The notes under the pieces were generated by a model, which worked only from the letters and a program-made list of their open reading frames with translations, made no database searches and had not been told where the DNA came from. Positions 1 through 62,454 of a DNA stretch of 64,000 nt are shown here, piece after piece (position 1 is the first letter of the stretch; the number at the start of each line of letters is the position of its first letter). Both the position numbers and the translations under genes were made by a program. The DNA comes from Lentzea guizhouensis (GTDB lineage: Bacteria > Actinomycetota > Actinomycetes > Mycobacteriales > Pseudonocardiaceae): positions 7,440,001-7,504,000 of the forward strand of contig NZ_CP016793.1 of NCBI RefSeq assembly GCF_001701025.1. Reading direction: 5' to 3'.

Positions 1-181
1 TCACCGACACGCCAGAGCCGTGTTCGCCGAGCAGGGCGAGGCCGGTGGTGGTCTTGCCGCTGCCCGAGGCGCCGACCAGGGCGAGCACCCGGCCGGCGGA
101 CAGAGCGAAGCTGACGCTGTCGAGCAGCACGTGCCCGTCCACCTCGGCACGCAGGTCCTCGACGTGCACGACCGGGCTCAC
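1..181 (-). CDS. ABC transporter ATP-binding protein, N-terminal part (DppD/OppD type)
   Basis: Only the first 60 residues are in the window; the gene continues past the left edge. It begins with GTG at 181, overlapping the stop of the permease gene by four bases (GTGA). The fragment has the usual beta-strand start of an ABC ATPase and a complete Walker A motif, GASGSGKTTT, at about residue 40. In peptide/nickel importers this subunit sits on the cytoplasmic face and drives uptake by ATP hydrolysis. Its place directly after two DppBC-like permeases and a solute-binding protein makes it the first ATPase of the same importer. A second ATPase or a fused double ATPase probably lies outside the window. 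Confidence 0.85.
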   Translation of the reverse strand, partial: MSPVVHVEDLRAEVDGHVLLDSVSFALSAGRVLALVGASGSGKTTTGLALLGEHGSGVSV

Positions 182-951
182 GTGCGCACCTTCCTCAGGG
201 CGCGGTCGAACACCAGGTTCAGCCCGACGGACAACGCGACGATCAGCAGTGCGGGCACCACCACGGTCAACGGCTGCAGGAACAACCCACCTCGATTGCG
301 GTCCACCATCACGGCCCAGTCCGCCGCGTCGGGCGGCACGCCGACACCGAGGAAGCTGGCCGATGCCACCAGGTACAGCGCCGCCGTGAGCCGGACACCC
401 ACGTCGGCGGCGAGCGTGCGCAGCATCGACCATCCTGTGTAGACGATCGAAGTCCGCCACCACGACTCGCCCTGCATGCGCATCGCCTCCAGGGCGGGTC
501 GTCCGGAGATCTCGAGTGCCGCCGCCCGCGAGAGGCGGGCCACGTCGGGGAAGTTGACGAGGGTGACCACACCGATGAGCACCGGGAGGCCTTGCCCGGC
601 GATGGCGGCCACGAGGATCAGCACCAGCAGCGACGGCACCGCGAGCAGCACGTCGAGCGGCCGCATCAGCACCTCGTCGACCAACCGCAGCCGCGCCGTG
701 GCCGCGAGCACGCCGTAGGGCACACCGGCCAGGTAGGAGAGCACGGTCGCGATCAACGCCACCAGCACGACCGTCTGGCCACCCGCGAGCACCTGGTACC
801 AGGCATCGCGGCCCACGAAGTCGGTGCCGAGCGGCCCCAGCGGAATGAAAGGCGCGCTGCGGGTCTGCTGGTCCGGCACGAACAGCGGTCCCAGCAATGC
901 CAGGGCCAACGGCACCGCGATCAGCAGCCCGCCGATGCCCGCCCGCTTCAC
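178..951 (-). CDS. ABC transporter permease, DppC/NikC family
   Basis: A 257-residue membrane protein with about five hydrophobic segments. It has the DppC-type N-terminus, in which one helix is followed by a short loop ending in PLGTDFVGRD, the conserved LGTD..GRD box. The cytoplasmic EAA loop lies around LEISGRPALEAMRMQGESWW. The GTG start at 951 overlaps the TGA of the upstream permease gene. The open frame extends further upstream, but that stretch is antisense to DppB and is not used. It pairs with the DppB-like subunit to form the channel of a peptide, nickel or metallophore importer. The substrate cannot be read from the permease itself. Confidence 0.85.
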   Translation of the reverse strand: MKRAGIGGLLIAVPLALALLGPLFVPDQQTRSAPFIPLGPLGTDFVGRDAWYQVLAGGQTVVLVALIATVLSYLAGVPYGVLAATARLRLVDEVLMRPLDVLLAVPSLLVLILVAAIAGQGLPVLIGVVTLVNFPDVARLSRAAALEISGRPALEAMRMQGESWWRTSIVYTGWSMLRTLAADVGVRLTAALYLVASASFLGVGVPPDAADWAVMVDRNRGGLFLQPLTVVVPALLIVALSVGLNLVFDRALRKVRT

Positions 952-1892
952 GCGACCACCTCCGCGCGCGGAGCGAGCCGGAACGCCACCAGGTCGGCCA
1001 GCAGGTTCACGGCCACCGTGGTGACGGCGAAGACCACGGCCAGGCCCTGCACGACCGGGAGGTCGCGGGCGGCCACGGAGTCCACCAGGACGGTGCCGAG
1101 CCCGGGGATCACGAACACCGCTTCGACGACGATCACGCCGCCCAGCAACCAGTCCGTGGTCCGCGCGACCTGCTGCACGGCCGGTGCCAGTGCGTTGGGC
1201 AGCGCGTGGGCGAACCGCACCCGCGTCTCGCCGATCCCGAGGCGGCGGGCATGGCGCACGTAGTCGGACGCCAGCGCGTCCACCATGCCCGCACGGACCA
1301 GGCGGCTGATCGAGCAGATCGGCCGGGCCAGCAGCACCACCAGCGGCAGCACCAGCACCGCAGGCTGGGCGAACAGGTCCGCGCCCACCGCCGTCGGCGG
1401 CAGCCAGGCCAGCTGCACGCCGAACACCGCGATCAGCACCACGGCGAGCGCGAACTCGGGGATCGAGTGCAGCGCCACGCTGATCGACGTCAACGCCCGG
1501 TCCAGCAGACTGCCTTCGCGCAACGCGGCCAGCACACCGACCAGCACCGAGATCGGGACCAGCAGCACCAGGGTCAGCGCCGCCAGCGCGACGGTCGGGC
1601 CGATCCCGCCGAACAGGAAGTCCGCGACCGGTCGGCCCGACACCAGCGACACGCCGAAGTCGAGCTGGGGCAGCCCGAGGAGCCACTCCGCGAACCGCTC
1701 GAACGTCGGCCGGTCCAGGCCCATGGCCGCGCGGATCTGGGCGATCCGCGCGGGGTCGGGGTTGTCCCCGGCCAAGGCCACCGCCGCGTCTCCTGGCAGG
1801 GCCTCGACCAGGAAGAACACGAGGGTGACCACGGCGAGCACCTGCACCAGCCCGAGCGCGGCCCGCCGGACCGCGTAGGACGCGAGACTCAC
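948..1892 (-). CDS. ABC transporter permease, DppB/NikB family
   Basis: A 314-residue permease. The N-terminal helix is followed by the FFLVEALPGDAA segment, corresponding to the F..v..LPGDPa signature of DppB proteins. Several membrane helices follow, and the EAA-like loop reads ASDYVRHARRLGIGETRVRF. The GTG start at 1892 overlaps the stop of the solute-binding protein gene. Together with the next gene it forms the membrane pore of the importer. Overlap on both sides implies translational coupling within the operon that begins near 9502. Nickel, peptide and opine-metallophore systems all use this family, so the context rather than the sequence suggests a metal-complex substrate. Confidence 0.85.
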   Translation of the reverse strand: MSLASYAVRRAALGLVQVLAVVTLVFFLVEALPGDAAVALAGDNPDPARIAQIRAAMGLDRPTFERFAEWLLGLPQLDFGVSLVSGRPVADFLFGGIGPTVALAALTLVLLVPISVLVGVLAALREGSLLDRALTSISVALHSIPEFALAVVLIAVFGVQLAWLPPTAVGADLFAQPAVLVLPLVVLLARPICSISRLVRAGMVDALASDYVRHARRLGIGETRVRFAHALPNALAPAVQQVARTTDWLLGGVIVVEAVFVIPGLGTVLVDSVAARDLPVVQGLAVVFAVTTVAVNLLADLVAFRLAPRAEVVA

Positions 1893-3418
1893 CCCAGCCA
1901 CACCTTGTCGAAGCGGGCCCAGTCCAGCGTGTTCGCGGGTGCGGTGGAGATGCCGCCGACGTTCGGCTTCGCGCCCACGATCCAATCGGCGAAGCCCCAC
2001 ATCAGGTAGCCGCCCTCGGCGTGCAGCACGCGCTGCATCTCGCGGTAGGCCTCGCCGCGCGCGGCCGGGTCCGAAGTGGACACCGCCTTCTCGTAGAGCG
2101 CGTCGAACTCGGGCCGCGCCCACTTGGTCACGTTGGTGCCCGAGCCGCTGAGCAGGCGCTGCGCGACGTGGGTCTCGATGGGCATGGCGCCGGAGCGGAA
2201 GCTCGACAGCGAGCCGTTCTTCAAGGTGTCAGCCCAGTAGCTGTCCTTGTTGCCCTGCACGACCTCGATCGTCAGACCGGACCCCTTGGCCTGGTCGGCG
2301 AACACGGTGGCGGCCTCGACCATGCCCGCTGCGGCCGTCGAGGTGTCGAGCTTGACCGTCAGGCCTTCGGCGCCGGCTTTGCGGATCAGGAACTTGGCCT
2401 TGTCCAGGTCACGCTCCCGCTGGGGCAGGTCGTCGGCGTAGTGCTGGTAGCCCTTGCCGAACAGGTCGTTGCCGACCTGGCCGCTGCCCGCGAGCACCGA
2501 CTCCACCAGCTGTGGCCGGTCGGTGAGCAGGAACAGCGCCTCCCGCAGGTCGCGGTTGTCGAACGGCGCCCGGTCCACCTTCATCGCGAACGCCTGCACG
2601 GCGCTGTTGGGGGAGCGGTGGATCGTCATCCGGTCGCCGGAGGCGTTGCTGCGCGCGGTGGTCGGGGTCAGGTCGTGGGCGTACTCGACCTGCCCGCCCA
2701 GCAACGCGTTGGTGCGCGCGGACTCCTCGTTGGCGATCACGAACTCCAGCTCGTCCAGCAGCGGCGCACCCTCCCAGTAGTTCGGGTTGCGCTTGAGCAG
2801 CACGGACCTGCCCGGCTCGAACGACACGAAGCTGAACGCCCCCGACCCGACCGGCTTGGCGAAGTCCTCGACGCCCTCGGGCACGATGTAGGCGCCGAAG
2901 GCGGCCAGTGCGTTGGGGAACTCACCGAAGGGCCGCTTCAGGGCGAACTCCACGGTGCGGTCGTCGACCGCGCGGCTGTTGGGCAGGTCGATCAGCGCGA
3001 GGCTCGACTTGGCGCGGAATGCGCGGTTCGGGTCGAGGATGCGCGCGTAGCTGGCGAGCACGTCCTGAGCCCGCACCGGTCTGCCGTCGTGGAACGCCGC
3101 CTGGCGCAGGCTGATCCGCCAGCGCGTCAGGTCTGCGTTCGGCTCCCACTTCTCCGCCAGCCGCGGCTGCGGTGACACGTCGTTGCCGAGGTCGGCGAGC
3201 TTGTCGAACATCGCCTTGGACCGCGCGGCTTCACCGAACAGGTTGGCCAGGTGCGGGTCGAGGACCTCCTTGGCGCCACCACCGGCGAACGCGGCGCGGA
3301 GCCTGCCGCCGGTGCGCGGCGTGGAAGAGGCCGAGGTCGCACCACTGCCGCACCCCGCGAGGGTGACGACCGCCAGACCGGAGGTGAGGCCGAGGAAACC
3401 GCGGCGGTTCAGGGACAT
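1889..3418 (-). CDS. Extracellular solute-binding lipoprotein, family 5 (peptide/nickel/metallophore type)
   Basis: A 509-residue SBP_bac_5 protein. The N-terminus MSLNRRGFLG followed by a hydrophobic stretch and LAGC (Cys23) indicates a lipoprotein signal; the double Arg suggests Tat export is possible. Family landmarks are visible: LAEKWEPNADLTRWRISLR, FHDGRPVRAQDV, YWEGAPLLDELEF and FDNRDLREALFLLTDR. The ATG at 3418 is chosen because signal and lipobox follow directly. The gene lies 11 bases after the methyltransferase gene, the only clear non-overlap in the operon. In staphylopine-like and nickel-chelate systems such proteins capture the metal-loaded chelator outside the cell. Here I infer the same role from the neighbouring biosynthetic genes. 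Confidence 0.82.
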   Translation of the reverse strand: MSLNRRGFLGLTSGLAVVTLAGCGSGATSASSTPRTGGRLRAAFAGGGAKEVLDPHLANLFGEAARSKAMFDKLADLGNDVSPQPRLAEKWEPNADLTRWRISLRQAAFHDGRPVRAQDVLASYARILDPNRAFRAKSSLALIDLPNSRAVDDRTVEFALKRPFGEFPNALAAFGAYIVPEGVEDFAKPVGSGAFSFVSFEPGRSVLLKRNPNYWEGAPLLDELEFVIANEESARTNALLGGQVEYAHDLTPTTARSNASGDRMTIHRSPNSAVQAFAMKVDRAPFDNRDLREALFLLTDRPQLVESVLAGSGQVGNDLFGKGYQHYADDLPQRERDLDKAKFLIRKAGAEGLTVKLDTSTAAAGMVEAATVFADQAKGSGLTIEVVQGNKDSYWADTLKNGSLSSFRSGAMPIETHVAQRLLSGSGTNVTKWARPEFDALYEKAVSTSDPAARGEAYREMQRVLHAEGGYLMWGFADWIVGAKPNVGGISTAPANTLDWARFDKVWLG

Positions 3419-3429
3419 GCTGGTTCCTT

Positions 3430-4215
3430 TCACTGGCACCCGTCTCGGCGGAGGCGGGCCACGACGTGGAGGCGGTCGCCGGACAGCTCGCCGCTCAGCG
3501 GGGCGTCGGCGGTCCAGGGCTGATCGGTGCGCGGGCCGGGGGAGTCGAACAGTGCGAGCACCTCGAACCCGGCGAGGTCGAGCAGGTGCCGCAGTTCCTG
3601 CGGGAACAGCAGCCGCCAGGCCGATCGCTGCACGAGCGGTTCGGTGCGCTCCGCCCACTCCCAGGTGCGCCGACGGCGCAGCAGTTGGGCGGCGTGGTCG
3701 ATCCACAGCTCGGTGTTCGAGGTGTATTCGGTGCCCCGCCACGTGACCGAACGGGTGCGCACACCATCGAGGAGTTCGGTGTTGCCCAGGAAGAACGCGC
3801 CGTTGCGCATTTCCGCCACGAACAACCCGCCGGGTAGCAGGTGCGCGCGGCACCGTTCCAGGAAGACCGTGAGGTCGGCGTTGGTGTGGCAGTACAGCAT
3901 CGCGCTGTCCAGGCAGGTCATGACGTCGAAGCGGCGATCGAGGTCGAAGGACCGCATGTCGGCCAACGCCACGTCGACGGCCGGGTGGTGCTCGCGCATG
4001 TGCGCGATCATGTTCTCCGAGCTGTCCACCCCGGCGACGCGATAACCGTTGCGGGACAACCAGCCCGCGTCACGACCGGTGCCGCAACCGATGTCGAGCA
4101 GGTCCCGTCCGCCGCCGAACCGGGTGACCACGTCGTGCACGAACCTCGCCGCCACGTGCTCGGGGTCGGGGAACTGGTGTTCGTACAGCTCAGGGTTGTC
4201 GGTGAGCAGGTTCAT
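3430..4215 (-). CDS. Class I SAM-dependent methyltransferase
   Basis: A 261-residue protein with the SAM-binding motif LLDIGCGTGRD at residues 39-49, an acidic residue ending beta-2 (AGVDSSENMI) and the motif II region ADMRSFDLDRRFDVM. It belongs to the small-molecule methyltransferase group. The ATG at 4215 overlaps the stop of the exporter gene (ATGA). Placed between the exporter and importer genes of a putative metallophore operon, it most likely N- or O-methylates the product or an intermediate. No substrate can be deduced. Methylation is not a universal step in opine-type metallophores, so this gene adds to the case for a different chemistry. Confidence 0.8.
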   Translation of the reverse strand: MNLLTDNPELYEHQFPDPEHVAARFVHDVVTRFGGGRDLLDIGCGTGRDAGWLSRNGYRVAGVDSSENMIAHMREHHPAVDVALADMRSFDLDRRFDVMTCLDSAMLYCHTNADLTVFLERCRAHLLPGGLFVAEMRNGAFFLGNTELLDGVRTRSVTWRGTEYTSNTELWIDHAAQLLRRRRTWEWAERTEPLVQRSAWRLLFPQELRHLLDLAGFEVLALFDSPGPRTDQPWTADAPLSGELSGDRLHVVARLRRDGCQ

Positions 4216-5384
4216 CTGGCTACCTCCTGCTGCCGTGGCGTGAGGGCGCCGCGCCGGTGCAACCAGGCCACACCCGCGGCGCTGATGAGTCCGATCGCGA
4301 CGCACAGCAGTGACGCGAGCCGGTCGCCGAACCCGCTCACCCATCCGATCGCGGTGTTGCCCAGCGCGGCCGCCAGCCCAGAGCCGAGGTAGAACACACC
4401 GAAGTGCGTGCCGGCGAGGCTGTCCGGGCCGAACGACGGGATCAGGTCGTAGACCAGGGGATGCGCGATCATCACGCCGACCGCCAAAGCGAGCGTGGCC
4501 ACCAGCACGGGCACGAGTCCGGACCACAGCGCGGGCGCGGCGAATCCCGCGCCCATGACGGCGAGACCCACAGCGATCACAGGACCCCGCGCACGATCGG
4601 AGACGAAGCGGGTGATGCGGACCTGGAACAGCAGCGTGACGATCGTGGACACGAGGAACAGCGCGGCGACCACGCCCGCCCAGCCGGTCGCCTTCTGCGC
4701 CTGGATCGGCAGCAGCAGGTAGAGCTGGTTCTGCAGGACGAACATTCCGCTGAGCACGCAGGTGAACGCCACGAACCGGCGGTTCGACAGGCACTCGCGC
4801 CAGTCGCCGAGGATCGACCCGCCCTTGCGCGCAGCCGCCCGCGCGGGCAGCACGACGGCCTGCGCGATGGTCAGTGCGGCGAAGATCCCGGCCGCCACCA
4901 CCGCGGAGACTCGGAAGTCCCACAGCAAGAGCACACTGCCGAGCACCGGTCCGCACAGCGCACCCGCCTGGGCGTAGACGTTGAACCGGGCGAACGCCTC
5001 GGTGCGCGCCTTTCCCGCCTCCAAAGCGATGTACGCGCGCACTGCGGGGTTGAACAGTGCCCCGGCCAGTCCGCTGAGGACAGAGGCGGCCAGCACCACG
5101 GTGAGCGAGTCACCGATCGCGAACAACCCGAACCCCACCGCGCGCAGACCGCAGCCGAGGAGGATGGCGGTGCGCGGCCCGAGCCGGTCCGACACCGTTC
5201 CTCCCACCAGGAACAGACCCTGCTGGCTCAGCGTGCGGACGCCGAGCACAACGCCGATCACCGCGGCGGACATGCCGAGGCTGCCCAGGTGTGTGGCGAG
5301 GTAGGGGATGAGCAGGTAGAAGCCGGTGTTGACGGCGAACTGGTTGACCAGCAGCAGCCGCACCGGCAGTGCGAACCGGGTCAT
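4212..5384 (-). CDS. Major facilitator superfamily transporter, probable exporter
   Basis: A 390-residue, twelve-helix MFS protein. The loop between helices 2 and 3 contains GGTVSDRLGPRTAI, matching the G..aDr.GrR signature of drug-efflux-type MFS proteins. The ATG at 5384 overlaps the epimerase-like gene's stop. Secreted small molecules such as staphylopine and staphyloferrin leave the cell through MFS exporters encoded beside their biosynthetic genes, while uptake uses a separate ABC system. This operon has both parts. I therefore infer that it exports the metal-free product. An unrelated efflux role cannot be excluded. Confidence 0.8.
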   Translation of the reverse strand: MTRFALPVRLLLVNQFAVNTGFYLLIPYLATHLGSLGMSAAVIGVVLGVRTLSQQGLFLVGGTVSDRLGPRTAILLGCGLRAVGFGLFAIGDSLTVVLAASVLSGLAGALFNPAVRAYIALEAGKARTEAFARFNVYAQAGALCGPVLGSVLLLWDFRVSAVVAAGIFAALTIAQAVVLPARAAARKGGSILGDWRECLSNRRFVAFTCVLSGMFVLQNQLYLLLPIQAQKATGWAGVVAALFLVSTIVTLLFQVRITRFVSDRARGPVIAVGLAVMGAGFAAPALWSGLVPVLVATLALAVGVMIAHPLVYDLIPSFGPDSLAGTHFGVFYLGSGLAAALGNTAIGWVSGFGDRLASLLCVAIGLISAAGVAWLHRRGALTPRQQEVAR

Positions 5385-6409
5385 GGCCGCACCACGCCCA
5401 GTCCCGGTGCCCCGGACAGCCGCAGGGTGCCGTCCTCTCCGCCGATGCCCGACCACGGGTCGTGGGCGAGCAGCAGGTGCCCGTCCAGATCGGCCCACCG
5501 GGCGTGCCCGGCGAGGTGGACAGCGGGCGCGATGCCGAGCGAACTGGCGACCAGGCAGCCGAGCATCACGTCCAGTCCGCCTTCACGGGCGGCCGAGACG
5601 ATGTCCAGCGCCGGCCGCAGACCGCCGCACTTGGCCAGCTTGATGTTGATGCCGTCCACCGCGCCCGCGAGCTTGCGGACATCGGCAACCGTGGCGGCGT
5701 CCTCGTCTGCGATCAGTGGTGCCGGGCACCGCTCGTGGACCCAGGCCAACGCGTCCGGGGTACCAGGTGGGATCGGCTGCTCCACAGCGTCGAGCACGAC
5801 ACCGGCGGCGGTGAGGCGCTCCACGACGCGCACCGTCTCGTCCGGGCTCCAGCCGCCGTTGGGGTCGAGCACCAGCCGCGCGTCCGGCGCGGCGGCCCTG
5901 ATCGCGACCGTGGTGGCCACGTCCCGCTCCGGGTCGGCTCCGACCTTGACCTTGAGCAGGGAGAACCCGCGCTCGGTCAGCGAAGCTGCCTGGGCTGCGG
6001 CATCGTCCGGCGCGGTGATGCCGATCGTGTAGGCGGTCGGGGTGTCCTGCCACTCCTTGGTGCCGAGGAGGACGTGTGCCGGCACGTTCTGACGAAGGCC
6101 CAGCAGGTCGTGCAACGCCGCGTCGACCGCGGCACGCACTCCGGCGGGGATCGTCTCGTCCGCGTGCAGGACGTCGAGGGCGGTCTCGGGGGAGTCCGCG
6201 TCGGCGAGAACCGGCCGAAGCCGGTTCAGCCGGGACGTGATCGCTTGCACGTCGAGCTGGTAGTAGGTGCTGGTCACCACTTCGCCGTGGCCGTGCTGCC
6301 CGTCGTGTTCGACGATGACGCGTACGGCGTCACGGCGTGACATCACCGACCTGGAGATGCGCAGCGGTGTGCTCAGTTCGAGGCCGTAGACCTCCCAATC
6401 GACCTTCAT
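5381..6409 (-). CDS. Enolase-superfamily enzyme, dipeptide epimerase / muconate-cycloisomerase-like
   Basis: A 342-residue enolase-superfamily protein of the muconate lactonizing subgroup. The catalytic set can be read in order: K-x-K at residues 153-155 (LLKVKVG), metal ligands Asp182 (LVLDPNGGW), Glu210 (AVEQP) and Asp235 (IADED), and the second base Lys257 (NIKLAKCGG). This arrangement matches L-Ala-D/L-Glu-type dipeptide epimerases, which invert a C-alpha centre in a dipeptide, but o-succinylbenzoate synthases and N-acyl amino acid racemases share it. The ATG at 6409 overlaps the PLP gene's stop. With an ATP-grasp amide ligase in the same operon, epimerisation of a ligated dipeptide-like intermediate is the simplest proposal. 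Confidence 0.8.
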   Translation of the reverse strand: MKVDWEVYGLELSTPLRISRSVMSRRDAVRVIVEHDGQHGHGEVVTSTYYQLDVQAITSRLNRLRPVLADADSPETALDVLHADETIPAGVRAAVDAALHDLLGLRQNVPAHVLLGTKEWQDTPTAYTIGITAPDDAAAQAASLTERGFSLLKVKVGADPERDVATTVAIRAAAPDARLVLDPNGGWSPDETVRVVERLTAAGVVLDAVEQPIPPGTPDALAWVHERCPAPLIADEDAATVADVRKLAGAVDGINIKLAKCGGLRPALDIVSAAREGGLDVMLGCLVASSLGIAPAVHLAGHARWADLDGHLLLAHDPWSGIGGEDGTLRLSGAPGLGVVRP

Positions 6410-7464
6410 GCGAGCACCACTGCCCTCGGTGCGACAACCGACCGGCACCGCGTCCAGCCCGTCGCCTCGACCCGGTGCGGATCCCCGATCTCCACCGGCC
6501 GATCGGCGGCCGCCCCGAGCAGTCCGCGAGCAGTGCAGAAGTCGTCGTCGAAGATCGTGCCGAGGTAGCGGTGCGGGCCGTCGGGGAAGATCGTCGCGAC
6601 CACCGCCCCCGGCTCGACCCTGGCGGCCCAGGCGGCGACCAGTGCGACGGCGCCGCTGCTCCAGCCACCGGTGACGAAGGCGTCACGGGCGAGTCTGCGG
6701 CAGGCGTCGACCACCTCCACCGGGCCCAGCCAGTGCACCTCGTCGAACTCGGCGTAGGCGACGTTGCGGGGGTGGATGCTGCTGCCCAGTCCGCGCATCA
6801 CCCTGGCCCGCGCGGGTTGCCCGAAGATCGTGGAGCCGACGGTGTCCACGCCGATCAGCCGCACACCGGGCCAGTACCGGCGCAGTTCCCGGGCCACGCC
6901 GGCGCTGTGCCCGCCGGTGCCCACGCTGCAGACCAGCACGTCGACCGGGTCGAGCTGCTCCACGAGCTCCCTCGCCAGGCCGACATAACCCTTCGGGTTG
7001 TCAGGGTTGTTGTACTGGTCGGGCCAGTAGGCGTCGGGGAACTCACGCAGCACGGCTTGGAGCCGGTCCAGGCGGGCCTGTTGCCAGCCGCCCACCGGGT
7101 GCGGCCGGTCCACGACCTCCAGCCGCGCCCCGTGCGCCCGCAGCAGCGCGCGCATCGACGGCTCCAGCTCGCTGTCCACCACCAGGACGACCGGGTGACC
7201 GAACACCTGGCAGGCGAACGCGAGTCCGAGACCGAGCGTGCCGCTGGTGGACTCCACGACAACGGCGCCGGGGCGCAGCTCGCCGCGATCGCGAGCGGCA
7301 CGGAGCATCGACACGGCCGGCCGGGCTTTCATCCCGCCGGCGCTCAGGCATTCGAGCTTGGCCCAGAACCCGCTGTGCCGGTGGGGCAGCGGCGTGGTGA
7401 TGCGGGTGACCGGGCTCTGGCCGAGCAGGTCGAGCAGGTGCCGGTTCTGGCGCGGGATCATCAC
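6406..7464 (-). CDS. Cysteine-synthase-like PLP-dependent enzyme (fold type II)
   Basis: A 352-residue beta-family PLP enzyme. The Schiff-base lysine is Lys46 in GGMKARPA; the substrate loop is ESTSG at 71-75; the phosphate-binding glycine loop is GTGGHSAG at 182-189. The usual SxK-type segment (SVKDR) is altered, and the asparagine of the common TSGNTG loop is replaced, giving TSGTLG. That argues against a housekeeping O-acetylserine sulfhydrylase. Relatives such as SbnA make 2,3-diaminopropionate precursors for siderophores. A GTG at 7464 is immediately followed by an ATG at 7461; either could be used. I infer that it supplies an unusual amino acid (for example a diamino acid) to the operon's product, with substrate unknown. 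Confidence 0.8.
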   Translation of the reverse strand: MMIPRQNRHLLDLLGQSPVTRITTPLPHRHSGFWAKLECLSAGGMKARPAVSMLRAARDRGELRPGAVVVESTSGTLGLGLAFACQVFGHPVVLVVDSELEPSMRALLRAHGARLEVVDRPHPVGGWQQARLDRLQAVLREFPDAYWPDQYNNPDNPKGYVGLARELVEQLDPVDVLVCSVGTGGHSAGVARELRRYWPGVRLIGVDTVGSTIFGQPARARVMRGLGSSIHPRNVAYAEFDEVHWLGPVEVVDACRRLARDAFVTGGWSSGAVALVAAWAARVEPGAVVATIFPDGPHRYLGTIFDDDFCTARGLLGAAADRPVEIGDPHRVEATGWTRCRSVVAPRAVVLA

Positions 7465-8255
7465 GACGGGCGCTCCGTGTAGTGGTGGATCGTCGTGGGA
7501 CCGCCGTCGAGCCAGAAGAACGGATACGGCTCAGCCGAGACGGCGCGCACTCCGCTGCCGATGAACCACGGCAGGACCGCGGCGGCAGTCTGCGCGAACA
7601 GGACCATCGGCGTGCCTGCTGCGACGGCGCGCGACAGCAGCGGTTCGAACGTGCCGTTGCCGACTGTCATCCCCGAGGCGAGCACGAGGTCGCAGCCGTC
7701 GAGCGCGCTCTCCGCCTCGGTGGTGATCGGCTCGTCCCACTCGGTCCGGCCGCCCTTGTGATCGCACGCCACGTAGGTCGCGCCTCGCTCGCGCAGGTGG
7801 TGCAGCAGCGAGTTGACCACGCCGACCACCAGCACCCGGTCACCCGGTGCCGGATCGAGCAGGTCGACCACGGCAGCGGCGCGGGCCATGGACTTGGTCA
7901 GGGAGCTGCCGGAGCCGATGGTGGCGGACTTGGTGGCGGACAGGTGGTGCGGCCGGACGTGCGCCAGGTAGGCGTCGAGCACGGCGGTGCGGATGGCCGG
8001 GTTCGGGTGGCCGAGCAGCTCGAGCACGGTCGAACCGACGCAGCTGTGCACGTCGTCGTCGGCGACGTCCTCCACCGCGCAGGACCCGACCGCGTCTTCC
8101 ACGCGGAGGCTGACCACGGTGTTGCGGTAGGACTGCCCGCGCGTGGCGTGCCGGGCTCCCTGCCTGGTGGTGAACCCGACGCTCACGGTGCACGACGCGG
8201 GATCAGGGCCAAGCCCGCCACTTCGGACGAGCTCGACGAGGTCGGCGAGGGTCAC
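7461..8255 (-). CDS. DUF364 family protein (Rossmann-like 'heavy-metal chelation' domain)
   Basis: A 264-residue protein resembling DUF364, often preceded by a DUF4213 region. The C-terminal half has a Rossmann-like strand VLVVGVVNSLL (141-151) and the conserved SGMTVGNGTFEP segment (194-205). A Cys-containing segment lies at residues 59-72. The Pfam description connects the domain with metal chelation, but no enzyme activity is established to my knowledge. The GTG start at 8255 overlaps the ATP-grasp gene stop. Its obligate position between amide ligase and PLP enzyme suggests that it takes part in making or metallating the product rather than in transport. This is the least understood and potentially most informative gene of the operon. 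Confidence 0.75.
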   Translation of the reverse strand: MTLADLVELVRSGGLGPDPASCTVSVGFTTRQGARHATRGQSYRNTVVSLRVEDAVGSCAVEDVADDDVHSCVGSTVLELLGHPNPAIRTAVLDAYLAHVRPHHLSATKSATIGSGSSLTKSMARAAAVVDLLDPAPGDRVLVVGVVNSLLHHLRERGATYVACDHKGGRTEWDEPITTEAESALDGCDLVLASGMTVGNGTFEPLLSRAVAAGTPMVLFAQTAAAVLPWFIGSGVRAVSAEPYPFFWLDGGPTTIHHYTERPS

Positions 8256-9502
8256 GCGGGCACCTCGGCGTAGTCGACGGACAGACCACCGACGAGCTGC
8301 TCGGCACGTGTGCGCGCGCCGAGACCGGCCGAGTCGGTCACGACGACGTGGCCGAGGTAGCTGTTGTTGCTGGTCGGGTCACCTGCGCGGTGACCGGGCC
8401 GCTTGACGGTCCAGTCCACGACATCGGGCGCGGCCTCGAGCGCCTCGGCGCCGCGGACGGCGGACACCAGGCCGGAGCGCGGTGGCAGGAGGAAGGAGAT
8501 CGCGGCGCTGCGCACACCGGTGTCCGCAGGACGTGGATCCGGCCGTTCGCCCACGGCCAGCTGGGCGTACGCGGCGGGCAGGTCGATGCCGGTGACCCGC
8601 CGCACGAGCTCCGTGATCTGGTTGCCCGCGGGGCGCGGGTTGACCTCGACGAGCTTCGGGCCGTCAGGCGTCAGCTTGACCTCGGTGTGCGCGACACCGC
8701 GGTCCAGGCCCAGAGCTTCGATGGCCGCGACGGCGACGGCCTCGGCGTCATCGGTGGGCAGATCGGCGGGGAACATGTGTCCGCTCTCCACGAACCACGG
8801 ATCGCCCGCGACGCTCTTGTCGGTGACACCGACGACGTGCGTCGTGCCGTCCACGGTGACGGTCTCCACGCTCACCTCGGGCCCGGTCAGCAGCTCCTCC
8901 ACCAGCACGGTCCGCACCCTGGGCTGGTTGCGTGCGTTGACCGGGAACGCCTCCATCGCGGCGAACGCCTCGCGCAGCTCCGACTCGTCGGTCACCTTGC
9001 GCACGTACATGCCGGCACACAGGTCGACCGGCTTGATTACCAGCGGATAACCCAGTTCGGCTGCCGCCTTGGCGAGGGCCGGCCAGTCCTCGGCCAGGGC
9101 GAAGCGCGGACCGGGTACGCCGGCCTCCCTCAGCGTGGTGCGGGTGAGGTCCTTGCGACACGCCCGTTCCACCGCGTCCGGGTCGGGACCGGGAAGGCCC
9201 AGGTGCGCGGCGACGCGCGCGGTGGCCGGGAGGTAGTAGTCGCACGAGGAGATCACGCCGTCGAAACGCAGCACAGCGTGCAGGCGCTCGACGTGGTCGA
9301 GCAGGGTGGGCACGTCGTTGGTCTCTGCGGTGAGCACGTTGTCCGCGGCCAGCAACGGGTGCGGGTGCGCGGGGGCAGCGCGCAGGTAGTGGTGCAGATC
9401 GCGGGTCATGAAGGTGAAGCGGTGCCCTGACTCGTTGATCGCCCTGGGCAACAGCGAGCTCATCGCGCCGACCCAGCTCTCGATCATCAACAGGTGAGCC
9501 AC
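8252..9502 (-). CDS. ATP-grasp family ligase
   Basis: A 416-residue ATP-grasp protein of the carboxylate-amine ligase type. Visible elements are CRKDLTR (Lys117), the ATP-binding strand GYPLVIKPVD (151-160), EELLTGPEVSVE (202-213) and the metal-binding LVEVNPRPAGNQ (284-295). Enzymes of this group form an acyl phosphate and then an amide or peptide bond. The GTG start at 9502 is preceded by a strong purine-rich ribosome site (GGAGGAGG, 4 bases away). It is the first gene of the operon, 47 bases downstream of the Fur/Zur-like box. I infer that it joins two amino-acid-like building blocks of the product. Confidence 0.82.
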   Translation of the reverse strand: MAHLLMIESWVGAMSSLLPRAINESGHRFTFMTRDLHHYLRAAPAHPHPLLAADNVLTAETNDVPTLLDHVERLHAVLRFDGVISSCDYYLPATARVAAHLGLPGPDPDAVERACRKDLTRTTLREAGVPGPRFALAEDWPALAKAAAELGYPLVIKPVDLCAGMYVRKVTDESELREAFAAMEAFPVNARNQPRVRTVLVEELLTGPEVSVETVTVDGTTHVVGVTDKSVAGDPWFVESGHMFPADLPTDDAEAVAVAAIEALGLDRGVAHTEVKLTPDGPKLVEVNPRPAGNQITELVRRVTGIDLPAAYAQLAVGERPDPRPADTGVRSAAISFLLPPRSGLVSAVRGAEALEAAPDVVDWTVKRPGHRAGDPTSNNSYLGHVVVTDSAGLGARTRAEQLVGGLSVDYAEVPA

Positions 9503-9548
9503 AAGTCCTCCTCCCCGCCGCGACCCCCGCGGCGGAACTGGGGAACAT

Positions 9549-9561
9549 GGTAATCATTATC
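9549..9561. promoter_or_regulatory. Fur/Zur-type operator candidate
   Basis: The sequence GGTAATCATTATC is an imperfect 13-base palindrome with the core TAATCATTA, very close to the Fur/Zur consensus half-sites (GATAATGAT). It sits between the divergent ATP-grasp gene (start 9502) and the His-rich gene (start 9723), and is A/T-rich in an otherwise GC-rich region. A repressor bound here would control the leftward operon and possibly the rightward gene. Whether it is Zur (zinc), Fur (iron) or Nur (nickel) cannot be decided by eye. Confidence 0.65.
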
Positions 9562-9722
9562 GATCCGTGGTCTCTACCGCCTCTCGGGGACGCGGCTGCG
9601 CCGGACGAGTGAGCGCTCGACGCGCACCATTCATGCGCGTTGACTAATATTTGTTGCGTTCAGTGACGACGCTAGAACGTCCGGGTGAAGTGAAGCCCGG
9701 CGCGACGAGAGGCAGGTTGATC

Positions 9723-10019
9723 ATGACCACGGCACACCTCGAACACGCCGACCACGGCCACGCCCACGGCGACGGGTGCGGCCATGTGGCCGTCCCGCAC
9801 GGTGATCACGTCGACTACGCGCACGACGGCCACCTCCACCGGGAGCACGACGGACATGTCGACGAGTGCGAACCCGGCGATCACCAGGCGCACTCGGACC
9901 ACGGTCACGATCACGGTGCGGGCTGCGGCCATGTGGCTGTCCCGCATGGTGATCACGTGGACTACGTGCACGACGGCCACCGCCATGCCGTCCATGACGG
10001 GCACTACGACGAACACTGA
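9723..10019 (+). CDS. Histidine-rich metal-binding protein with internal duplication
   Basis: A 98-residue protein in which roughly a quarter of residues are His, with many Asp/Glu. It consists of two near-identical copies of a unit containing CGHVAVPHGDHVDY followed by HDGH motifs. There is no signal peptide or membrane segment, so it should be cytoplasmic. The ATG at 9723 is preferred over an upstream in-frame start because the repeat unit begins right after it. Similar short His-rich proteins are often mis-annotated as 'zinc transporter permease'. Divergence from the metal-regulated operon suggests a zinc or nickel buffer, store or chaperone. Two Cys residues (one per unit, in GCGH) add possible ligands. 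Confidence 0.75.
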   Translation: MTTAHLEHADHGHAHGDGCGHVAVPHGDHVDYAHDGHLHREHDGHVDECEPGDHQAHSDHGHDHGAGCGHVAVPHGDHVDYVHDGHRHAVHDGHYDEH

Positions 10020-11420: not shown

Positions 11421-12116
11421 ATGACGGACAAGGACACGAAGGCCCTCGTGCTCGGTGGTGGCGGGTGTCGCGGGGATCGCCTGGGCGACCGGGATCCTCG
11501 CGGGGTTGGCTGACGCGGGTGTCGACGTGACCGACGCGGACCTGGTGGTCGGGAACGTCTGCCGGTGCGACCGTCGCGGCACAGGTGACCAGCTCGAGGC
11601 CCCTCGGTGCTCTTCACGACGACCAGGTCAACGGCACGGGAGCGCCGGAGCCGGCGATTCACGACGTCGATCCGGTCGCGCTGCTGGCCGAGGTTCGCGA
11701 GATCCTGGGCAGTGGAGACGACCCGCAGGTCATCCGCCGGCGCATCGGCGCCATGTCACTGGCGCAGGACCGCGTTCCGGTATCGGAGCGTCGTGCGCTC
11801 ATCCTGCGCGATTCCGCGGGTGTGGCCGGCGGTCCCGATCCACGGCCGCCGCCTCTTCGACGGCGGCATGCGCAGCGGCACCAACGCCGATGTCGCCAAG
11901 GACTGCGGCAGGGTGTTGGTCCTCGACGTGATCGGGTTCCCGGAGACCGGTGACGTGCAACCGGTTTCCGCGCCGCTGCTCACCATCACGCCGGACGAGG
12001 CTTCCCAGGCCGGGCTGCAGAACCTCCTCGACCCGGGCTCCCGCGCGATCTGCGCACGAGCCGGACACGACCAGGGCCAGAGGATCGCGGCAGAGGTCAA
12101 GGCCTTCTGGGCCTGA
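11421..12116 (+). pseudogene. Patatin-like phospholipase, frameshifted
   Basis: The start MTDKDTKALVLGGGG is the patatin oxyanion-hole glycine loop. The protein continues in other frames with GIAWATGILAGLADAGVDV (patatin helix), ADLVVGNV (expected GTSAG nucleophile elbow, here destroyed) and the C-terminal DGG catalytic Asp motif in RRLFDGGMRSGTNADVA. At least three frame changes and loss of the GxSxG serine motif show that the gene is inactive. Patatin-like enzymes hydrolyse acyl lipids. It is preceded by two TetR-type operators, so it was once regulated together with the downstream SDR gene. Confidence 0.7.
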
Positions 12117-12210
12117 TCGGTACTTCGGACACAAGTGCGCTCCGGCCGTCAGGCAGGCCGGACGTACGCGACGAGCCCGCCTGTTCGACCAACCACGACA
12201 AGGAAAGCTC

Positions 12211-13125
12211 ATGAAGATCTTCATGACCGGCGCCACCGGTTACATCGGCAGTGTCATCACCGAGAAGTTGCTGCAAGCCGGACACCAGGTCGTGGGACTC
12301 GCCCGTACCGACGCCTCCGCTCGAGCCCTGCAGGACCTCGGCGCCGAGCCCCTGCGCGGAAGCCTCGGTGACACCCGGCTCCTGACCGACGCGGCTCAGG
12401 CCGCCGACGGAGTGGTCCAGAACGCCTTCGACCTCGGTGCCGACTTCGCGACGGCCACTGCCGAGGAAGCGAAGGCCGTCCACGCCTTGATCACCGCACT
12501 GCAAGGCAGTGACAAACCGCTCGTCTACACCAGCGGCACAGGAGGCCTGGGGGACACCGGCTCCCTCGTCTACGACGAGGAGACCCCCATCGCCGCATCG
12601 GAATCTCCTACCGTGCGAGCGCTCCAGTTGCGCTTCGAGACCGAGAAGGCCGTGACCGGTGCGCCTGGTCTGCGTGGCATCGCGCTGCGGCCGCCGAACG
12701 TCTTCGGGCGTGGTGGCGGCCGCTCGGTCCTGTGGCTGATCGGGGTGGCGGGTCAGAAGCTGGGGGCCGTTCCCTACCCGGTGGAGGCGGCCGACAACCT
12801 GTGGTCGCTGGTCCACGTCGACGATCTGGCGGACCTCTACGTCCTGGCCGTGGAGAAAGCGCCTGGCGGCGAGTTGTTCCACGCCGCATCCCGCAGCGGG
12901 CTTCGCACCCGGGACGTCGCCGCCGCGATCAGTCGTGGCGCAGGGCTCGGAGGCAAGACCGTCGCACTGGGCAAGGACGAACTCGCCGACGCTCTCGGCG
13001 CACCGCCGCTCGCGGACTACTGGTCCATCAACAGCCAGATCTCGGGGGAGAAGGCGCGTCGCGTGCTCGGCTGGGAACCGCGACACCTCGACGTCCTCGA
13101 CGAACTGGGCCGGCCCGCGAACTGA
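12211..13125 (+). CDS. NAD(P)-dependent epimerase/reductase, extended SDR family (copy 1)
   Basis: A 304-residue atypical/extended SDR. The nucleotide-binding motif GATGYIG lies at residues 7-13. The region LVYTSGTGGLGD holds the substrate-side Ser/Thr equivalent of the SDR triad, and LRPPNVFGRGGG is the NAD-epimerase PPNVYG segment. The classical YxxxK is not obvious, as in many NmrA-like/atypical members. The ATG at 12211 is preceded by AAGGAAAG. A closely related second copy starts 0.5 kb after it ends, so this is a tandem duplication. The gene probably shared a TetR-controlled transcript with the decayed patatin gene. The physiological substrate is unknown. Confidence 0.8.
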   Translation: MKIFMTGATGYIGSVITEKLLQAGHQVVGLARTDASARALQDLGAEPLRGSLGDTRLLTDAAQAADGVVQNAFDLGADFATATAEEAKAVHALITALQGSDKPLVYTSGTGGLGDTGSLVYDEETPIAASESPTVRALQLRFETEKAVTGAPGLRGIALRPPNVFGRGGGRSVLWLIGVAGQKLGAVPYPVEAADNLWSLVHVDDLADLYVLAVEKAPGGELFHAASRSGLRTRDVAAAISRGAGLGGKTVALGKDELADALGAPPLADYWSINSQISGEKARRVLGWEPRHLDVLDELGRPAN

Positions 13126-13150
13126 ACTCGCCGAACGACGGCTACCGGTG

Positions 13151-13297
13151 TTACGGCAGGCGGCTGAAGGAACGCCGGTAGGCCGTCGGGGTCAGCCCGA
13201 CCCGCCGGACCAGGTGTTGGCGCAACGAGTCCGCGCTGCCCAGCCCGCTGCGCGCGGCGACGACGTCCACGGGCAGATCGGTGGACTCCAGCAGCTA
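13151..13297 (-). pseudogene. AraC/GlxA-type regulator, C-terminal remnant
   Basis: About 48 residues on the minus strand match the second helix-turn-helix of AraC-family activators: STDLPVDVVAARSGLGSADS, then LRQHLVRRVGLTPTAYRRSF and a stop. Everything upstream of this is replaced by plus-strand coding sequence of an oxidoreductase, so the gene has been cut. It marks a deletion junction between the two SDR copies. Confidence 0.65.
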
Positions 13298-13592
13298 CCT
13301 GCACTTGGCCGAGCGCGCCGGACGCGGCCTGAACAAGCGCTTCCGCGCGCCGTGGCCGACCACGTTCATCTTCAACCCCGACACGGGTTCCACTCCGACG
13401 GGCCCCGGCGAGCTGCGGCTCGTCGAGGACGGCAGCGCCGATCTGCTCGCCTTCGGCGCGCACTTCATCGCCAACCCCGACCTGCCGCACCGGCTCGCCA
13501 CTGGCGCGCCGTTCGCGCAGGGCGACCGCCGCACGTTCTTCAGTGGCGGCGACGGGGGCTACATCGACTACCCGCCGCTTGCGCGCAACGAC
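13296..13592 (+). pseudogene. Old Yellow Enzyme-type ene-reductase, C-terminal remnant
   Basis: About 100 residues match the C-terminal end of NemA-like FMN ene-reductases: SYLHLAERAG, then AFGAHFIANPDLPHRLATGA, FAQGDRRTFFSGGDGGYIDY and PPL near the end. The N-terminal three quarters, including most of the FMN barrel, are missing. The fragment abuts the AraC remnant on its left and the second SDR copy on its right. No function is expected. Confidence 0.65.
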
Positions 13593-13628
13593 GCACTCCG
13601 ATCACACGTATGCGAAGAGATGGTGCAA

Positions 13629-14545
13629 ATGAAGGTTTTTCTGACGGGTGCCACTGGCTACATCGGCAGTGTCATCGCCGAGAAGTTGTTGCAGCCGGGC
13701 ATGACGTCGTGGGACTCGCCCGCTCTGATGCCTCGGCTGACAAGCTCAAGCAGCAGGGCGTCGAGTCTGTCCGCGGTGAGATCAGCGACACCCAGGGGCT
13801 CACGGACGTGGTCAAGGGAGTCGACGGGGTCATCCACACCGTCTTCGATTCGAGCTCTCTCGACTGGACGGCGGCCAACGCCGGAGATGTCGCGGCCGTC
13901 AACGCCATGATCGCCGGACTGCGGGGGACCGGAAAGCCGTTCATCTACACGAGCGGCACGGGAGTTCTCGGCAACACCGGTGAGATCGTCTATGACGAGG
14001 ACACGCCGATCGTGCCCTCGGAACTTCCCGCGGTCAAAGCACTTCAGCAACGTCTCGGCACCGAGAAGGCCGTGCTCGAAGCCGCTGGTGTCAGCGGCAT
14101 CGTGCTGCGACCACCCAACGTCTACGGACGTGGTGATGGTCGCGCGGTGTTCTGGATGATCCGGGAGGCGGCGAAGAAGCTGGGGGCCGTGCCCTACGCG
14201 ATCGGATCCGAGGACAACCGCTGGGCCTACGTCCACGTCGACGACCTGGCAGACCTCTTCGTCCTCGCCCTGGACCAGGCGCCCGCCGGCGAACTGTTCC
14301 ACACCGGTGCGCAGAGCGGTCTTCGCACCCAGGACATCGCTACCGCGCTGAGCCGGGGCATGAGACTCGGCGGCAAGACGATCGCCTTGGAGATGCCAGA
14401 GCTCGAGGCGGCCATCGGCTTCCCGTTCGTGGCGGAGTACTGGGCCTCGAACAGCCAGTCGTCGAGCGAGAAGGCACGTCGCGTGCTCGGCTGGACACCG
14501 CGGCACCTCGACCTCCTCGGCGAGATCGGTCAGCCATCACGCTGA
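13629..14545 (+). pseudogene. Extended SDR family (copy 2), single-base frameshift
   Basis: This is a close paralogue of the gene at 12211. It starts MKVFLTGATGYIGSVIAEKL and then loses frame. Compared with copy 1, one G is missing between 13694 and 13695 (CAGGCC has become CAGCCG). After that the second frame continues without further damage through VVGLARSDASADKLKQQG, YTSGTGVLGN and LRPPNVYGRGDG to the stop at 14545. The single, clean loss leaves two options: a recent inactivating mutation or a sequencing error. If corrected, the protein would be about 305 residues and probably functional. Confidence 0.75.
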
Positions 14546-19802: not shown

Positions 19803-20289
19803 ATGAACACCGTATGGCCTGCCCTGATGGCCGCGGTTGCCGCCCTTGGCGGCGTCACCGTCGGTGCCCTCGTCGAACCGTTGAAGCTCGGTGCAGCAAG
19901 ACGTGCCCGAGTCCGTGAGGAGCGGGCCGCGCGGCTTATCGAGGTGTCGTGCCCGCTTGCTCGCTGTGAACCTCGCGCATCGCCGGACCGCGTGAGGAAC
20001 TGTCGTTGACGCAGCGCAGGAGGATGAGCTCGTAAACCTGTACCGACAGGCGCGCAACGATTTGCGCCAAACAGTGGCGCTGCTGCGATTGAGCGGTCCG
20101 GACGAGCTGGTAGAGGCCGCGATGAGTGTGCGGCAGGCCGAACGTGCTCTGCGCGGGACTCGATTCGTGGGCGACGACGGCGCCTACTTCGACAAGGACG
20201 CGCCGCCGAAAGCTGTATTGGCCGCCGCCCACAATCTCGAGAACGTGGTGCACGAGTTCGCCAGGACGTCTCGCAAGCTGGCCGTCTGA
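19803..20289 (+). pseudogene. Small membrane-anchored protein, copy 1 (frameshift and stop)
   Basis: Begins MNTVWPALMAAVAALGGVTV with one N-terminal transmembrane helix, then GALVEPLKLGAARRARVREE, a basic cytoplasmic helix. Frame is lost near 19950, an in-frame TGA follows, and the third part resumes with DELVNLYRQARNDLRQTVAL, then LRLSGPDELVEAAMSVRQAE to the stop at 20289. The third part aligns with the same segment of copy 2 (YYGARNEIRQVVGLLDLSGP). The function is unknown; the pattern of one helix plus coiled coil is common in phage- or stress-associated actinobacterial proteins. The preceding 19412-19802 stretch shows no gene I can support. Confidence 0.5.
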
Positions 20290-20805
20290 TGCTCACCCCG
20301 CTGATCACCGGCCTGTTCGCGCTCGGCGGTGTCACCCTGGTCGTGATGTTGGAGCCGTCAAAGCGCTGTTCGCGGCACACGCGCGGTCCAGGCAGGAGCG
20401 GGCCGAGCGGTGCGCCAAGCTCGTGGAGGCCGCGAGCACGCGCGTTCGGCGCTGATCCGACTGAACACCCGGCACCGGCGCAGGACGCTGGGCGCCGAGG
20501 TCGTGGACGCATCCGAGGAGTTCGAGATCGAGAACATCTACTACGGAGCCCGCAACGAGATCCGGCAGGTCGTCGGCCTGCTCGATCTGTCCGGGCCGGA
20601 CAAGCTGGCCGCTTGCGCCGTAACCGTGCGCGAAGCCGACCGCGAGCTGGGCAAGGTGCGGTTGGACGTTGAGGACGCGCCCCCGTTCGACCGATACACC
20701 CTGCCGCCCGCCGTGCGGAAGGCCGCAGACGCGATGGAGGCCGAGGTGAAGGCGTTCGTGGGGATGGCGCGGCGGCACGTCCGTCAACCCTGCCCGCTTC
20801 GCTAG
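20289..20805 (+). pseudogene. Small membrane-anchored protein, copy 2 (two frameshifts)
   Basis: The ATG at 20289 overlaps the TGA of copy 1 (TGATG), so the pair was one operon. It starts MLTPLITGLFALGGVTLVVM, with the same helix as copy 1. Frame shifts near 20358 to VKALFAAHARSRQERAERCA, and near 20440 to RSALIRLNTRHRRRTLGAEV, VDASEEFEIENIYYGARNEI and on to the end. If both shifts were repaired the protein would be about 170 residues. It is a tandem paralogue of copy 1, with both copies damaged. No known domain was recognised. Confidence 0.5.
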
Positions 20806-61774: not shown

Positions 61775-62454
61775 GGGTTGCGTTCCACCCGGTAACCGCT
61801 GCCACGAACCGTGATCACCACTTCGGGAGCGTCGGGGTCCCGCTCGACCTTGCAGCGCAGCCTGCTGATGTGGACGTCGAGCAGCCTCGTGTCACCGTAG
61901 TAGTCGTACCCCCAGACGCGGCGCAACAGCTGTTCCCTCGTCACGACCCGTCCCTCCGCGACGGCGAGCTCGGCGAACAGTCGGAACTCCGTCTTGGTGA
62001 GGCGCAGGTCGGCGCCGGCCCGTTGTGCGACGCCCTCGTCGGGTCTGATCTCGATGTCGCCGATGCGGTACACGGCGCTCTGCAGATCACTGCGGCGACG
62101 TCGCAGCAAGGCCCGGATCCGGGCTGCCAGCTCGCTCGCGACGAGTGGTTTGGTGACGTAGTCGTCGGCCCCTGCCTCCAGCCCGGCGATCACGTCAGAG
62201 GTGTCCGTGCGAGCCGTGATGATGATGATCCGCAGGTCGGCGCGGGATCGCAGCGCTTTGCAGACGACCAGGCCGTCCATGCCGGGCAACATCAAGTCCA
62301 GCAGCACGACGTCGAACACGCCGGTGTCGAGCAGGTGCAGCGCCTCCTCGCCCGAGCCCGCTTCGACGACGTCGAACCCCTCATCGCCCAACGCCAAGCC
62401 GAGCGCCTGCCGGATGCGCTCGTCGTCCTCGACGAGCAGCACGCGATAGTCCAT
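61771..62454 (-). CDS. OmpR-family response regulator
   Basis: A 227-residue regulator. The receiver domain has the acidic pair VEDDERIRQA, phospho-acceptor Asp in VVLLDLMLPGMDG, Thr in IITARTD and Lys in YVTKPLVASEL. The winged-helix DNA-binding half reads LTKTEFRLFAELAVAEGRVV, then REQLLRRVWGYDYYGDTRLL and VRGSGYRV. It is first in the operon, followed by HK, lipoprotein and two DUF202 genes. The ATG at 62454 is the natural start before MDYRVLLVEDD. The promoter lies in the gap to its right. Confidence 0.92.
   Translation of the reverse strand: MDYRVLLVEDDERIRQALGLALGDEGFDVVEAGSGEEALHLLDTGVFDVVLLDLMLPGMDGLVVCKALRSRADLRIIIITARTDTSDVIAGLEAGADDYVTKPLVASELAARIRALLRRRRSDLQSAVYRIGDIEIRPDEGVAQRAGADLRLTKTEFRLFAELAVAEGRVVTREQLLRRVWGYDYYGDTRLLDVHISRLRCKVERDPDAPEVVITVRGSGYRVERNP

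Follow-up and report, generated by a model that had tools for sequence, protein, structure and literature searches.

A putative zinc-regulated metallophore operon with a DUF364 and SbnA-like core in Lentzea guizhouensis, and its relatives under a cobalamin riboswitch

The DNA analysed here (the window) is a stretch of 64,000 nucleotides of the soil actinomycete Lentzea guizhouensis, positions 7,440,001 to 7,504,000 of contig NZ_CP016793.1. It begins with an operon which, judged from its gene content and its promoter, is likely to be a zinc-regulated metallophore operon whose products would make, export and re-import a small zinc-scavenging molecule. Two of its enzymes, a DUF364 protein and a pyridoxal 5'-phosphate (PLP) enzyme resembling SbnA, recur in two further kinds of operon. 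We refer to the kind found in the window as type I, to a minimal kind under a cobalamin riboswitch as type II and to a kind with a FecBCD-type importer as type III. We give about even chances to the proposal that the DUF364 and SbnA-like core has split into zinc versions, controlled by Zur and either with or lacking tailoring enzymes, and the minimal riboswitch version as a dedicated cobalt metallophore, with the choice of metal readable from the regulator and the tailoring genes. That relatives of the two core enzymes occur in similar operons under the riboswitch suggests one unstudied chemistry adapted to different metals.

The operon lies on the minus strand of positions 1 to 9502. Nine of its genes are complete there and a tenth, for a fused double ATPase, is represented by its first 181 bases, where the window edge cuts the operon; together with the flank it comprises 11 genes. 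Gene families were assigned with Pfam and NCBIfam models and nearest solved structures by sequence search of the PDB. The first gene encodes an ATP-grasp ligase of the L-amino acid ligase kind (8252..9502, 416 residues; PF13535, 1.5e-20; LAL_C2, 8.3e-16), whose closest solved relative is the L-amino acid ligase BL00235 (1.1e-31). It is followed by the two proposed core enzymes, the DUF364 protein (7461..8255, 264 residues; PF04016) and the SbnA-like PLP enzyme of the cysteine synthase family (6406..7464, 352 residues; TIGR03945), and by a racemase/epimerase of the enolase superfamily (5381..6409, 342 residues; PF13378, 1.2e-38). Next come an MdtH-like transporter of the major facilitator superfamily (MFS), the probable exporter (4212..5384, 390 residues; PF07690, 6.3e-35; 145.1 bits with the MdtH model, cut-off 469), and an S-adenosylmethionine-dependent methyltransferase (3430..4215, 261 residues; PF13649, 5.1e-17). 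The importer consists of a family 5 substrate-binding protein of the NikA/OppA kind (1889..3418, 509 residues; PF00496, 1.2e-71; top NCBIfam model Opp5A_nikA with 132 bits, cut-off 600), two ATP-binding cassette (ABC) permeases of the NikB/OppB kind (948..1892, 314 residues) and the NikC/OppC kind (178..951, 257 residues), both assigned by Pfam and NCBIfam, and the fused double ABC ATPase (1..181 in the window, the remainder at 5763-7181 of locus L003; two PF00005 stretches). A GNAT gene follows the ATPase gene outside the window (L003 5191-5766; PF00583). By their coordinates, neighbouring genes overlap by four bases at nine of the ten junctions, and only the methyltransferase and the binding protein are separated, by a gap of 11 bases. 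The original prediction, made from the letters of the window, had named the families inside the window as ten genes read in one direction with nearly universal overlap; the families, the single strand and the overlaps were all recovered, while the number of genes changes to nine complete ones plus a fragment, or 11 with the flank.

A Zur-type box, the 7-1-7 palindrome TGGTAATCATTATCG on the plus strand (9548..9562), is located 46-60 bases before the start of the ATP-grasp gene, between the operon and the divergent gene of a histidine-rich protein. Read on the operon strand it matches the published Zur motif of Streptomyces coelicolor, tGaNNatSatNNtCa (PMC5472717, seen in part), at 9 of 11 specified positions. 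With up to three mismatches to the palindrome the window contains two sites, compared with 0.02 expected from shuffles; the second, at 62217, has three mismatches. At up to two mismatches the whole 10-Mb genome contains only two sites, the operon box and one at a pair of adjacent CobW-family genes (L100 2914-5063, Pfam), where it overlaps the called start of the leading gene. CobW-family genes are usual targets of Zur. At up to three mismatches there are 22 genomic sites versus 8 for the reversed control pattern, and hence single weak Zur-like sites mean little. One three-mismatch site of the same genome (L101 4514) stands just before genes for a family 5 binding protein (Pfam) and permease-like proteins.

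Both the gene order and the box are conserved. A scan of species genomes gave at least 240 DUF364 relatives, the best 80 of which were kept for locus comparison. Ten genes in the same order and on one strand were present in 74 of these 80 best loci; in the remaining six the set is incomplete or has diverged. The box was counted in 78 of them, two having no usable upstream stretch. In the 300 bases preceding the ATP-grasp gene the top site scored at least 10 of 14 in 66/78 loci and at least 9 of 14 in 74/78, and among the controls 10 of 14 was reached by 8/1560 shuffled upstream stretches and by 28/1586 random stretches of the same loci. This conserved promoter box would place the operon among the Zur-regulated ones. 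Since the box is conserved, zinc is favoured over iron or nickel for type I. The predicted Fur/Zur-like element corresponds to a Zur-type palindrome found across related loci, the genes do occur together in other actinomycetes, and the reading as a metallophore operon is well supported by gene order and box; the earlier choice of zinc, nickel or iron narrows for type I to zinc, with iron and nickel less favoured.

Type I loci come from Pseudonocardiaceae, Micromonosporaceae, Streptomyces, Frankia and other groups. In genome samples, DUF364 matches with an E value no higher than 1e-65 occurred in 40/200 genomes of the family, counting both operon types, and in 10/394 genomes of the class. Operons of this kind are also carried by the plasmids pRZP2 of Rhodococcus sp. 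ZPP and p1 of Streptomyces angustmyceticus, where the annotation is generic and Zur-like boxes before the ATP-grasp gene score 10 and 12 of 14, respectively. On the Rhodococcus plasmid (L179) a DUF1490 gene (20407-20685) comes soon after the operon, with an 11/14 Zur-like site at 19908.

What the three operon types share is the DUF364 protein and the PLP enzyme. The former scores 43.3 bits with PF04016, above the curated cut-off of 23, and has no relative in a PDB sequence search, 3l5o included. Its Cys164-Asp165 pair is kept in all 38 operon members aligned, as are Tyr43, Asn45, Arg51, Asp94, Asn148, Trp173, Met196 and Gln222. Other actinobacterial DUF364 proteins have Glu at the Asp165 position in about 17 of 19 cases, mostly after a hydrophobic residue, the count being approximate as at least one of the 19 sequences (L154) is in the wrong reading frame. 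For Dhaf4260, the accessible part of the structure paper describes the conserved acid Glu148 as the likely contact to the nucleotide ribose (PMC2954201); Asp165 may well be its counterpart. The closest solved relative of the PLP enzyme is SbnA (1.8e-47). K46, the PLP lysine, R131 and Y151 are invariant in 19 aligned PLP enzymes of all three types, the latter two aligning with Arg132 and Tyr152 of SbnA. Altered SbnA chains in the PDB suggest that Tyr152, like Ser185, is important. The aligned type II enzymes (L103-L110) end in a Cys-containing CxxC tail, which the enzyme of the window does not have.

In the trees, types II and III form clades for both proteins. With midpoint rooting type I does so for DUF364 alone, and two of its PLP enzymes remain unplaced; over-long starts occur in two of the type III DUF364 sequences. 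In a sample of 396 Actinomycetota genomes, 30 of whose 32 DUF364 loci were read, the PLP enzyme adjoins DUF364 in 6/6 loci of the operon kind, one being the type III locus of the window's own genome, and in 1/24 others. A general pairing of DUF364 with PLP enzymes in Actinomycetota is rejected on this 1/24, itself a weak match (24% identity). As each of the three operon types seen contains both proteins, this pair is the likely core, and the remaining enzymes are probably tailoring enzymes. The original prediction had treated all enzymes as one pathway. In the comparison, relatives of the ATP-grasp ligase, the epimerase and the methyltransferase were found only with the Zur-controlled, NikA-type version.

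Some genomes carry another kind of DUF364 gene, alone or in addition to the first, whose product is about 50-57% identical to that of the window. In eight long loci of this type II (19 kb), the DUF364 gene is accompanied by the genes for the PLP enzyme and an MFS transporter. A NikA-type importer follows in 6/8 and was not found in L103 and L105, and no relative of the ATP-grasp ligase, epimerase or methyltransferase was present in the 19 kb of any of the eight. Their top Zur-like site in the 350 bases before DUF364 scores 5-8 of 14, and in all eight this stretch contains a cobalamin riboswitch (RF00174). A further draw from 297 genomes of a single family gave 30 loci, a non-random sample made up of roughly the best matches to a DUF364 of the minimal type; here RF00174 was present upstream of DUF364 in 24/24 loci without ATP-grasp and in 0/6 with ATP-grasp and epimerase. 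The 24 minimal loci include the eight long ones and some near-identical genomes; 1.5 kb on each side was covered, the importer being looked for in the eight long loci. Over all type I loci screened with Rfam, RF00174 was found in none of 18 (L003, L005, L015, L027, L028, L031, L040, L051, L135-L140, L145, L148, L179 and L180), L140 and L027 apparently being the same place. A single minimal locus, L115 (the same place as L107), has a 10/14 Zur-like site, some 1.1 kb ahead of its DUF364 gene; in the remaining 23 the score does not exceed 9/14. The proteins closest to the minimal type are recorded under Saccharopolyspora spinosa, S. erythraea, Actinopolyspora erythraea and others. Within the NikABCDE family, riboswitch control has earlier served to separate the cobalt-linked members (PMC2667541, as far as the accessible text goes). 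Two other regulators were considered for the eight long minimal operons and rejected: a motif for iron control (DmdR/IdeR) was matched at best at 11/19 positions and that for nickel control (Nur) at best at 7/12, and the riboswitch was found instead.

At 8.37 Mb in the genome of the window there is a further, diverged DUF364 gene, beside genes for a diverged SbnA-like enzyme, a FecBCD-type importer, an MFS transporter and a TauD-family protein. Six more loci of this type III were found (L141-L144, L146 and L147). Their promoters contain a Zur-like box of 10-12 of 14, so that 6/7 type III loci reach at least 10, and Rfam found a cobalamin riboswitch in none of the seven. A plasmid of Tsukamurella has a similar arrangement. 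In L141 and L142 the genes of the core pair flank one for a GHMP-family kinase (Pfam), an arrangement also annotated on a Streptomyces melanogenes plasmid. On the S. melanogenes and Tsukamurella plasmids a Zur-like box of 11 and 10 of 14, respectively, precedes the importer genes, and neither locus has the riboswitch. SbnA uses a phospho-amino-acid substrate, and the kinase gene is compatible with such a substrate for the PLP enzyme.

For the chemistry, a possible route can be drawn from the enzyme families. Beta-replacement on activated serine is established for the family of the PLP enzyme. The SbnA-like enzyme would attach the nitrogen of an amino acid at the beta-carbon of activated serine, with O-phosphoserine as the probable form. 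The DUF364 enzyme would then complete a small aminocarboxylate chelator; no other enzyme relative was seen in the minimal operon. In type I the ATP-grasp ligase could add one more amino acid, the enolase-type enzyme invert one centre and the methyltransferase cap the product, so that these three would extend and protect the chelator. An amide-linked, epimerised and methylated product, as originally predicted, is compatible with these enzymes. Going by their families, the MFS protein would export the product, and the NikA-type binding protein with its ABC transporter would return the metal complex. Zur would repress the operon when zinc is ample, and the riboswitch operons with the same two core enzymes would play the same role for cobalt.

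Dipeptide epimerases are recognised by a KxK motif, metal ligands, a second lysine and a DxD motif. The epimerase of the window shows all of these, and K153, K155, D182, E210, D235, K257, D307 and D309 are each kept in 97% or more of the 78 sequences compared. It scores below the curated epimerase cut-offs (DgcA, the best, 236.6/400; L-Ala-D/L-Glu epimerase 162/343). Its DLDG stretch does not settle the specificity, since this also occurs in the relative 4gfi, which is named by superfamily only.

Several observations weigh against a zinc metallophore, or against parts of the scheme above. The best family model for the PLP enzyme, TIGR03945 (SbnA), gives 262.5 bits and thus less than its cut-off of 349.95, which leaves the enzyme outside the family proper, and there is Gly at the position aligned with Ser185 of SbnA. 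The best model for the epimerase is that of an N-acetylglutamate racemase, again with a score under the cut-off. The operon holds no enzyme that supplies O-phosphoserine, and the GHMP kinase is Pfam-confirmed in two type III loci only. A GNAT relative is near only 50 of the 80 loci, downstream in 30 and upstream on the other strand in 20. As for the regulator, the box scores only 8 or 9 in 12/78 type I loci and only 9/14 in the type III locus of the window's genome, and the threshold was chosen after the sites had been viewed. For the minimal type, nickel is conceivable because one such operon (L104) lies near urease accessory genes (UreF, UreG-like and UreD by Pfam, 152-2359). Finally, transporters of the NikA/Opp family also carry plain peptides.

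One alternative is that type I makes a small peptide antibiotic or inhibitor of the dapdiamide or bacilysin kind under Zur control, with the MFS transporter as self-protection and the ABC transporter importing peptides. The ATP-grasp enzyme, of the L-amino acid ligase kind and weakly similar to dapdiamide synthase (29.7 bits) and BacD, would suit such a product, and the GNAT protein could serve self-protection as well. Yet the Zur box in most type I loci and the cobalamin riboswitch in type II argue against this, as does the repeated association of the core pair with an MFS transporter and an importer of the NikA or FecBCD type, and we consider such a product unlikely. Still less probable is an operon that imports and dismantles foreign chelators or peptides to free their metal. 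Importer genes are part of the operon, the epimerase and the GNAT protein could act on an imported compound, and the DUF364 paper, in the portion seen, allows condensation or hydrolysis (PMC2954201). Against this, all three operon types have an MFS transporter. ATP-grasp ligases and SbnA-like enzymes are generally synthetic enzymes.

A different objection is that the pathway has already been described under another name, as that of ethylenediaminedisuccinic acid (EDDS) or another aminopolycarboxylate. An SbnA-like step is part of EDDS synthesis. Zinc regulation led to the discovery of the EDDS genes in Amycolatopsis japonicum (PMC12161575, in part), and antiSMASH 7 has a class for aminopolycarboxylic acid metallophores (PMC10320115, in part). 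However, among the matches listed from the open-access literature, a body of text that leaves preprints and most subscription papers outside, no report places DUF364 in such an operon, and the public records seen for related loci name the genes only generically. We regard this as the least probable of the alternatives and retain a zinc-regulated metallophore operon as the preferred interpretation.

The divergent gene upstream of the operon (9723..10019, plus strand) encodes a histidine-rich protein of 98 residues with no family match in Pfam or NCBIfam and is built from two 131-nucleotide repeats that are 78% alike. It is possibly a second gene under the operon's Zur box region; among the 80 related loci a relative of it adjoins the operon in L005 only. 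Further on, the list of open reading frames of the window shows two similar adjacent genes for proteins resembling epimerases dependent on nicotinamide adenine dinucleotide (11950-14545).

DUF364 has had a structure since 2010, together with a predicted role as an enzyme of metal-chelator synthesis that was drawn from fold and gene context (PMC2954201, accessible part), and among the matches listed from the open-access literature there is no proven reaction. Since DUF364 and one PLP enzyme are the only enzymes of the minimal operon, beside an exporter and mostly an importer, the function of DUF364 is directly testable there. If our proposal is true, the cobalt chelator of the riboswitch version would be a secreted cobalt-scavenging molecule and would show how bacteria retune a chelator between metals. 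One search of the open-access literature for papers joining two of the subjects cobaltophore, cobalamin riboswitch and metallophore gave none.

Among known systems the opine zincophores come closest in plan. Staphylopine, bacillopaline and pseudopaline are zinc-linked and, according to the part of PMC7438024 that was available, their clusters consist of two core enzymes, an optional racemase, an exporter of the MFS or another kind and an Opp- or FecCD-type importer. The present operons share this plan, including an exporter and an importer of these kinds, but have DUF364 and the SbnA-like enzyme in place of the nicotianamine-synthase-like enzyme and the opine dehydrogenase. PF03059 (nicotianamine-synthase-like) matches none of the 11 operon proteins and nothing genome-wide, one control genome being matched; PF10100 (opine dehydrogenase) matches none of the 11, and its genome-wide search gave no match but none in the control genomes either. 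With both core enzymes absent from the operon, an opine pathway is rejected. As in the staphyloferrin B pathway, the operon has a PLP enzyme for which SbnA is both the best family model and the nearest PDB relative, and it differs in having neither an SbnB-like protein (PF02423) nor a synthetase of the NIS (nonribosomal-peptide-synthetase-independent siderophore) kind; three PF02423 genes over the cut-off exist in the genome, the closest of them some 27 kb ahead of the window. That the gene set would match neither of these two pathways had been predicted correctly. (S,S)-EDDS, the zincophore of A. japonicum, is likewise a zinc-regulated chelator of an actinomycete (PMC12161575, in part). With Dhaf4260 (PDB 3l5o, PF04016) the DUF364 protein shares its family and, by the accessible text of PMC2954201, a metal-linked gene context. 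Unlike most other aligned actinobacterial DUF364 proteins, with their hydrophobic residue and Glu, the operon subfamily has Cys-Asp and is paired with a PLP enzyme.

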